Position numbers and translations under genes: made by a program. A stretch of 64,000 bases of DNA from Opitutia bacterium (GTDB lineage: Bacteria > Verrucomicrobiota > Verrucomicrobiia > Opitutales > UBA953), in the NCBI GenBank assembly GCA_947470855.1, contig CANIUQ010000003.1, forward strand, positions 1-64,000, in the 5' to 3' direction. Positions 33,465 through 35,527 of the stretch are shown here, one piece after another. The notes below the pieces were generated by a model, which saw only the letters and a program-made list of their open reading frames with translations, did no database searches and was not told where the DNA came from. The first letter of the stretch is position 1. Each line of letters begins with the position of its first letter.

Positions 33465-33920
33465 TTACTGGGAAGCGCTCGCCGCTGCTGGTAGATGATG
33501 TAGAATAGAAATGACCTCTGCGTTCGTCCGAGCAATCGTCCAGAATGATGCTGGAATGGCTGGACCCGAACTTCCTGAAAATACTTTTCTACCGTTGGCA
33601 TCAAAAACACTAATCGAAAGCGACATGATTGTTTCGGATCCGTTGGGAGGCTGAATTTGCCAAGAAGAACGAACAAAGCCTTGTGCTTTGGCTTTATCAC
33701 TAACCACGATAAAACCGTGAATGGCGAATTCCTCGGATACTGCCTCTGCTAAGTTATTAGAAAGAGAGTTGGCGGCCGCACAATCGGTCAGACGGGGGTT
33801 TTCGATGTAGACTTTGCGAAAGGATAAACCTGGAGAATGGTCGGCTCCACTTTCACAACCAACAAGAACCATCGACAATAACAATAGTCGCAACGAAAGG
33901 CATCCGTTTCGCGTAAACAT
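33465..33920 (-). CDS. Small putative lipoprotein
   Basis: 151 residues from ATG 33920. The signal peptide LRLLLLSMVLVGC carries a lipobox with lipidated Cys at residue 22. The mature part (about 130 residues) has strands and helices with SLSNNLAEAVSEEF and GFVRSSWQIQ; the fold resembles outer-membrane-assembly or CsgG-like accessory lipoproteins only vaguely and no family is claimed. A longer reading to 34082 would bury the signal peptide, so it is rejected. It lies eight bases beyond panE, convergent, and divergent from the HAD-DUF721 gene. Confidence 0.65.
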   Translation of the reverse strand: MFTRNGCLSLRLLLLSMVLVGCESGADHSPGLSFRKVYIENPRLTDCAAANSLSNNLAEAVSEEFAIHGFIVVSDKAKAQGFVRSSWQIQPPNGSETIMSLSISVFDANGRKVFSGSSGPAIPASFWTIARTNAEVISILHHLPAAASASQ

Positions 33921-34071: not shown

Positions 34072-35127
34072 ATGCCCGTCATTCAAGCAGTCACCTTCGA
34101 TTTAGCGGGAACGATTCTTTTTCCTCACCCTTCCGTGGGTGAAGTTTATGCCAATTGTGCGGCCAAGGTGGGTGTTCGGGTTGAGCCAAAGATTCTCAAC
34201 CAAAACTTTCTCACTGCCTATTCTGGAACCAAGAAACAGAAATCAGCCGAACACTTTTGGCGCGAAGTGGTATATCGCACTTTTGGAGCGGACTTACCTA
34301 ATGATAAAGCAGAGGCGGTTTTCCGGGAATGTTGGCAGGCTTTTGCTGACGAGAAAGCGTGGCGTTTAGCTTCGGGAGTTAAGCAAACCATCACTGCTTT
34401 AAAATTTTTGGGACTTAAAGTAGCGATTCTTTCCAATGCAGACGCTCGTATGCATAAAGTCTTACAGGGCAAAGGACTCAGTCAGGTTTTAGATGGCGTA
34501 TATCTCTCAACCGAAATCGGCTTTGATAAACCTGATGCCAAAGTTTTTCATGCTGTGGCAAAGTCACTCAGTATACCCATTCGCTCTTTGGTTCATGTTG
34601 GAGATAGCCCTCAAGAGGATGGCGAGGGGGCACGTGATGCTGGTGCCATGGGCTTGATTGTGGGCGGCAGGCATGCACCAGAACGGTGTCTTAGAGCTGA
34701 AAAAATTTGGGAAGTTCCTTATGTTTTGCGTGCGGTCATGACTGATGGCATGCGTCAGGGTAAATTTTCCCGCACCGTCCAAAATCTTTTAGCTAACCTT
34801 AGAGGTTTGCCGGAGGATCGTGGACGCTCGACCGACCGACAACTGAAGTCGCTAGATGAAGCGGTCGGCGATGCTTTACAAAAATGGCGTATTGATAAAC
34901 CTGTTCCTGAGGATGCGATTGTCGCACATTGGCATCAATTACTGCCTAGCAAACTTGCTAAACTGTGTGCCCCTCTCCGGCTCAAAGACGACGGTCGTCT
35001 CATGATTCAGTGTGAGAGTAATGTGGTGAAATCCGAGGTGCGTTTTCACGAAAAAGCTCTGCTGGCGAAGATTCGCCAACTCCCCGGTTGTCAGGTTGTC
35101 AAAGGCCTGCTCTTTACGAGTTCTTAA
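34072..35127 (+). CDS. HAD-like (REG-2/HDHD3-type) protein fused to a DUF721/DciA-like domain
   Basis: 351 residues in two parts. Residues 1-225 are a HAD subfamily IA fold: motif I is FDLAGT (nucleophile Asp10, but Ala12 where the general-acid Asp normally sits, as in REG-2/HDHD3 proteins), motif II ILSNAD, a KPD Lys motif, and HVGDSPQED. Residues about 250-350 match DUF721/DciA: IVAHWHQLLPSKLAKLCAPL, then a DDGRLMIQCESNVVKSEVRF strand-helix unit and a C-terminal strand. DciA loads the replicative helicase DnaB in most bacteria. No stop or frame change separates the parts. An in-frame ATG at 34750 could also give a separate DciA-like product. TCTAAT lies seven bases before the start. Confidence 0.78.
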   Translation: MPVIQAVTFDLAGTILFPHPSVGEVYANCAAKVGVRVEPKILNQNFLTAYSGTKKQKSAEHFWREVVYRTFGADLPNDKAEAVFRECWQAFADEKAWRLASGVKQTITALKFLGLKVAILSNADARMHKVLQGKGLSQVLDGVYLSTEIGFDKPDAKVFHAVAKSLSIPIRSLVHVGDSPQEDGEGARDAGAMGLIVGGRHAPERCLRAEKIWEVPYVLRAVMTDGMRQGKFSRTVQNLLANLRGLPEDRGRSTDRQLKSLDEAVGDALQKWRIDKPVPEDAIVAHWHQLLPSKLAKLCAPLRLKDDGRLMIQCESNVVKSEVRFHEKALLAKIRQLPGCQVVKGLLFTSS

Positions 35128-35527
35128 CTTTTGAGGATGGCTCAAACGGACGCAGAAAAGCTTCTTTAAAATCATAAAGATTTTCGAAGTCGGACAAGTC
35201 GTCTTCTTCCGATTTCCCAAAAAGACCCACTTCGATGAGCTTAAAAACAATATGTCCCACATCCACGCTCTTTTTCAGTCCCCAGTTTTGTAGAAGGTGG
35301 TAAGACATCGGCCCATAGGTGTTGAGGACATATTCACGAAAACCGTCTAAGAGGTCCTCACCCGTAACGTGACGATTTGGAGATTCAGTGGCGTCTTTGC
35401 TTTTTTTCTCTTCGCCGTGCACTTTCTTTTGCGAGTAGTCGAGTGCAAGTCGCACTAAATGATAGGCCTGTGGAGTATAGCGCCGGTCTTTTTGGCAAAG
35501 GGCGCGGACGATTTCATCAAAATCCAT
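35114..35527 (-). CDS. Minf_1886-family protein
   Basis: 137 residues of a conserved family found mostly in Verrucomicrobiota and Planctomycetota. Diagnostic features are a start like FDEIVRALCQKDRRY, then AYHLVRLALDY, HVTGEDLLDGFREY, YGPMSYHLLQNWG and an acidic C-terminal region ending EAFLRPF. It has no known biochemical function; it is soluble and mostly helical. Its ATG directly abuts the hisC stop (35528), so the two are co-transcribed and probably translationally coupled. Its 3' end overlaps the convergent HAD-DUF721 gene by 14 bases. Confidence 0.85.
   Translation of the reverse strand: MDFDEIVRALCQKDRRYTPQAYHLVRLALDYSQKKVHGEEKKSKDATESPNRHVTGEDLLDGFREYVLNTYGPMSYHLLQNWGLKKSVDVGHIVFKLIEVGLFGKSEEDDLSDFENLYDFKEAFLRPFEPSSKVKNS

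Follow-up and report, generated by a model that had tools for sequence, protein, structure and literature searches.

A putative helicase loader of the DciA family fused to a REG-2/HDHD3-like HAD domain in Opitutales

The window, a stretch of 64,000 nucleotides from contig CANIUQ010000003.1 of an Opitutia bacterium (Opitutales; GenBank assembly GCA_947470855.1), contains a gene that encodes a haloacid dehalogenase (HAD) hydrolase domain and a DciA domain (DUF721) in one polypeptide. DciA is the helicase loader commonly found in bacteria, and its mechanism and control are not yet settled. The coordinates given in a sequence-only reading of the window, with the HAD preceding DciA in one ORF, proved exact. 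The features of the gene are the following:

34072–35127, + strand: HAD-DciA fusion gene, a single ORF from ATG to stop, 351 aa
34081–34644, + strand: HAD hydrolase domain (REG-2/HDHD3-like, subfamily IA), residues 4–191, from Pfam, TIGR02252 and PDB 3k1z
34099–34101, + strand: motif I nucleophile Asp (D10), invariant in the aligned fusions and lost in one clade of the sister genus g201
34105–34107, + strand: position D+2, Ala12 in place of Asp; also non-Asp in stand-alone homologs, Lys in HDHD3
34432–34434, + strand: motif II Ser121, from the alignment of fused and free HADs
34528–34530, + strand: motif III Lys153, from the same alignment
34603–34620, + strand: motif IV Asp178 and Asp183, from the alignment; residue 178 is Asn in L024 only
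34738–34752, + strand: candidate internal starts, the in-frame ATGs at 34738 and 34750, found in the window's subclade only (L001, L010, L023)
34765–34815, + strand: conserved DciA N-terminal motif FSRTVQNLLANLRGLPE, the start of the order's stand-alone DciAs; the fusion joint lies just before it
34855–35109, + strand: DciA/DUF721 domain, residues 262–346, from PF05258; first fold matches 7ykm and 8a3v
34930–34932, + strand: Trp287, invariant in the DciA alignment

Residues 4–191 match the Pfam family Hydrolase above its curated cut-off (E = 1.8e-20; the Hydrolase/HAD_2 span reaches to about residue 192). Both sequence and model contain the complete signature of subfamily IA, namely D10, S121, K153, D178, D183 and a helical cap. 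By far the best NCBIfam model was that of the REG-2-like HADs, TIGR02252. With 149.9 bits the domain scores just below the curated cut-off of 155.2 bits and hence resembles this family without being filed as a member, from which it also differs by its fusion to DciA. The nearest solved chain by sequence and by fold is human HDHD3 (PDB: 3k1z), which likewise has no Asp at position D+2. The C-terminal part affiliates with PF05258 (residues 262–346, 52.6 bits, E = 5.4e-14, curated cut-off 24 bits). When its 123 residues were modelled separately (mean pLDDT 77), the top three Foldseek matches were the DciA of Deinococcus (7ykm) and two chains of the Vibrio DciA (8a3v). The identification of the C-terminus as DUF721/DciA, its union with a HAD in one ORF and the motif I reading FDLAGT, with Ala at D+2, were all borne out. 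AlphaFold2 predicted the full-length protein from a 95-row alignment with a mean pLDDT of 91.9 and a pTM of 0.65; the model breaks at residues 227–230 and 252–255, with a helix (residues 234–243) in the region of the DciA N-terminal motif between the two breaks. The prediction depicts two well-folded domains connected by a flexible tether.

The characterized DciAs of Vibrio cholerae (8a3v), Deinococcus radiodurans (7ykm), Caulobacter and Mycobacterium (Rv0004) share DUF721, a KH-like fold and a conserved Trp with the fusion. An N-terminal extension before DUF721 and a single copy alongside DnaB are common to both as well. By its Pfam score, predicted KH-like fold and single copy beside DnaB, the C-terminal half is most likely an ordinary DUF721 DciA. 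The fusion differs from the known DciAs in the extra N-terminal HAD of about 225 residues. It also ends right after DUF721, which stops five residues short of the stop codon, as do the other DciAs sampled from this order. It has no counterpart of the C-terminal extension with which the Caulobacter and Vibrio proteins bind DnaB, an extension that is not universal among DciAs. In Caulobacter, single-stranded DNA is bound by DUF721 and the N-terminal extension, and DnaB by the C-terminal extension (PMC12547741). The Vibrio protein packs a C-terminal helix hairpin against the LH-DH module of DnaB (PMC9912922). An undiscovered cofactor has been suggested by one group as needed by DciA, and the same article credits Blaine et al. 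2022 with a tremendous diversity of DciA architectures (PMC9912922). Our literature search never paired DUF721 or a helicase loader with a haloacid dehalogenase, and a HAD-DciA fusion was not found in the passages of Brezellec 2016 (PMC5109545) returned by a search within that article; Blaine et al. 2022 may list the architecture. As far as could be checked, this combination of domains is new for a known loader.

In the genome of origin (96% complete), the fusion was the only DciA found; the genome also has one DnaB, encoded on contig 7. Both Pfam families were matched in all 29 aligned fused relatives. Within the window's family, 67 of 79 genomes gave a DciA hit, and the readable frames were fusions in all five genera (roughly half of the sequences were read directly, the remainder being known by frame length only); short frames in this family run off contig ends. 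The named relatives are metagenome-assembled genomes (MAGs) labelled Opitutae, Opitutales or Verrucomicrobia. The probability that an assembly or frameshift artefact merged two genes is vanishingly small, since the in-frame fusion recurs in the readable copies of all five genera, from many genomes that were assembled independently; these relatives rule out a sequencing error as well. Where divergence permitted an estimate, dN/dS was mostly 0.04–0.12 for the HAD and mostly 0.01–0.15 for DUF721, i.e. both halves are under purifying selection. Comparison across Verrucomicrobiota, proposed as a check in the sequence-only reading, revealed the two domains fused in the window's family and separate in the rest of the phylum. 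The DciA frames of other families mostly measure 120–200 aa, and no fused HAD was found in the few longer ones checked (G213, G260, G363, G129, G321 and G218); in G363 and G129 the extra length looks like an extension of the open frame. Among phage copies, one weak match covered the HAD part only. In the phylum sample, several genomes of families f24 (genera g48 and g60) and f39 (g72), estimated to be 92–99% complete, lacked any PF05258 match; their loader may be lost, replaced or very divergent, which would be worth a look.

The examined members of the window's genus share a syntenic block around the gene (gene names assigned partly by eye): a CBS/hemolysin-type membrane protein, nadB, a panE-like gene, a lipoprotein-like gene (in most members), the HAD-DciA fusion, a Minf_1886 gene and hisC, followed by a sugar-epimerase-like gene, a lipoate-ligase-like gene and mutS. 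One neighbor of the fusion is divergent and the other convergent, and the fusion gene is therefore probably its own transcription unit. The divergent gene encodes the lipoprotein-like protein (33465–33920, − strand), in which a lipobox LVGC was recognized by eye. Its first ATG, at 34082, would overlap the start of the fusion, which makes a start near 33920 more likely. The convergent gene encodes a protein of the Minf_1886 family (TIGR04138, 137 bits; 35114–35527, − strand) and overlaps the 3′ end of the fusion by 14 nt.

Searches with the HAD part retrieved stand-alone homologs in other families of the order. When the positions of HAD and DciA from the same genomes were joined by hand, the HAD gene was the immediate upstream neighbor of dciA, on the same strand, in 13 of the 42 order genomes with both genes, spread over six other families (f5, f8, f15, f18, f20 and f21). 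Two more genomes have them within 2.7 kb, and in the remaining 27 they are apart; such a HAD is missing from many genomes of the order. Estimated from gene number, a given gene would be the upstream neighbor by chance about once per some thousand genomes, and in the rest of the phylum sample about 19 genomes combined a strong REG-2-like HAD with a listed DciA position, none of them holding an adjacent pair. In G040, G403, G415 and G425 the stop and start codons of HAD and dciA overlap by 4 nt; these pairs encode the same two proteins in the same order and strand as the window gene, as two polypeptides instead of one. The spacing is 14–18 nt in G050, G053 and G281 and about 60–290 nt in most others, and in G055 possible dciA starts overlap the HAD. 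The stand-alone DciAs of the order start at about (M)xFSRxxxNLIAxLRGLPE, corresponding to residue 231–232 of the fusion, and the joint is therefore placed at the DciA N-terminus. Taken together, the sequences indicate that the fusion derives from two neighboring genes, presumably through loss of a stop codon. The tree of the HAD part is compatible with a single origin of the fusion, without proving it.

Close to this joint lies the ATG at 34750, which had been put forward as a possible start of free DciA. Its conservation was not confirmed, as this ATG and that at 34738, both in frame, are present only in the window's own subclade (L001, L010 and L023). That free DciA is produced from 34750 (or 34738), with the fusion as one of two products, is highly improbable: the two ATGs do precede the N-terminal motif of DciA by a few codons, but they are not conserved in the genus, and in several of its members the 30 codons preceding that motif contain none of ATG, GTG and TTG. 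No AGGAG-like site was seen near either ATG, a weak point because the annotated start also has no obvious site of this kind.

The lack of the second Asp in motif I had been taken as a hint of an inactive HAD. This hint failed, as D+2 is occupied by other residues throughout the group and the remaining catalytic residues are present. In the order, REG-2-type HADs, whether fused or free, nearly always have Ala, Gly, Thr or Ser at this position, a few further members have Val or Phe, and HDHD3 has Lys; Asp was absent from all of these HADs examined, fused or free. With Ala12, the window HAD falls outside the DxD-type phosphatases, defined by Asp at D+2. Phosphonatases, haloacid dehalogenases and P-type ATPases are active without this Asp. 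In the 29 aligned fusions D10, S121, K153 and D183 are invariant and D178 is nearly so. A HAD dead for want of the D+2 Asp was thus rejected, this being a trait of the whole HAD group; since the catalytic residues are kept and dN/dS is low, the enzyme of the window lineage is probably alive, i.e. a working hydrolase. A single member of the window's genus, L024 (G010), has Asn in place of D178, possibly by recent loss or assembly error; its close relative L025 keeps the Asp.

The sister genus g201 presents another state. Its HADs are intact in G433, G434 and G436. Four other MAGs, G428 (L208), G429 (L189), G432 (L190) and G435 (L192), group in one moderately supported clade (91/88). In these, the Asp of motif I, motif II, the Lys of motif III and the first Asp of motif IV are gone, together with the whole cap or most of it, and the HAD core remains joined in frame to DciA. 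That four MAGs with open frames share this loss argues against error. Among three compared decayed copies, identity amounts to 42–50% for the HAD core versus 36–50% for the DciA halves; judged by these values the core is as conserved as DciA and appears still constrained. As this clade lost the active site yet keeps the fusion, the loader probably does not need catalysis. The constraint on the core may reflect either a role in loading or a mere need for a soluble N-terminal domain; its degree of conservation hints at more than a passive shell.

We favor, with a probability of about 0.72, an ordinary DciA loader joined to an entrenched REG-2/HDHD3-like HAD that is probably active in the window lineage and whose catalysis the loader does not require. 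In an ancestor of the family, the stop codon between neighboring, in places overlapping, HAD and dciA genes would have been lost. The DciA half would bind single-stranded DNA through DUF721 and the N-terminal extension and help to seat DnaB. Because DciA of this order ends after DUF721 and the FSRxxxNLIAxLRGLPE helix is a conserved extra element, this helix, which directly follows the HAD between the two flexible breaks, may take over the contact with DnaB. The HAD half, a probable hydrolase, would be connected to the loader by the flexible linker. The loader would operate independently of HAD catalysis, with selection holding at least a foldable HAD core. The absence of the DnaB-binding C-terminal extension seen in Caulobacter and Vibrio counts against this explanation.

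Pure hitchhiking, in which a housekeeping HAD underwent a neutral fusion that is kept because the essential gene needs the start codon of the HAD, overlaps with this favored explanation and differs solely in denying the core any role. It would account for the loss of the enzyme in one clade that kept the fusion, and most of the phylum manages with a free DciA; the remnant core is, however, as conserved as DciA, and the gene pair standing across families is independent evidence against it. We regard it as doubtful, and gene pair and fusion together suggest some functional tie beyond plain hitchhiking. A stronger tie would exist if the HAD were a regulatory module gating helicase loading through the binding or turnover of a metabolite or phospho-protein. 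The gene pair in six families and the fusion in a seventh, the catalytic residues that most of the family retains and the constraint on the core even after active-site loss make such regulation possible. Catalysis-dependent control is weakened by the g201 clade, in which catalysis is dispensable, and the separate location of both genes in most order genomes carrying them, the many genomes without such a HAD, the flexible tether and the modest pTM render gating by the HAD unlikely.

Apart from the favored explanation, we tentatively consider, at less than even odds, that the HAD core serves the loader as a structural or regulatory module without catalysis, one recruited from the enzyme of the neighboring gene and kept under constraint after active-site loss in one clade. 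If true, the family's loader would be a machine of two modules, different from every DciA studied. The fused lineage, the lineages with both genes side by side and the sister clade with a dead shell form a natural series for the role of the HAD in loading. Around the stand-alone pairs, inspection by eye located a polynucleotide-phosphorylase-like gene downstream in L069, L168, L074, L076 and L080, preceded in L069 and L168 by an rpsO-like gene, and nadD- and rsfS-like genes upstream of the pair in L169.
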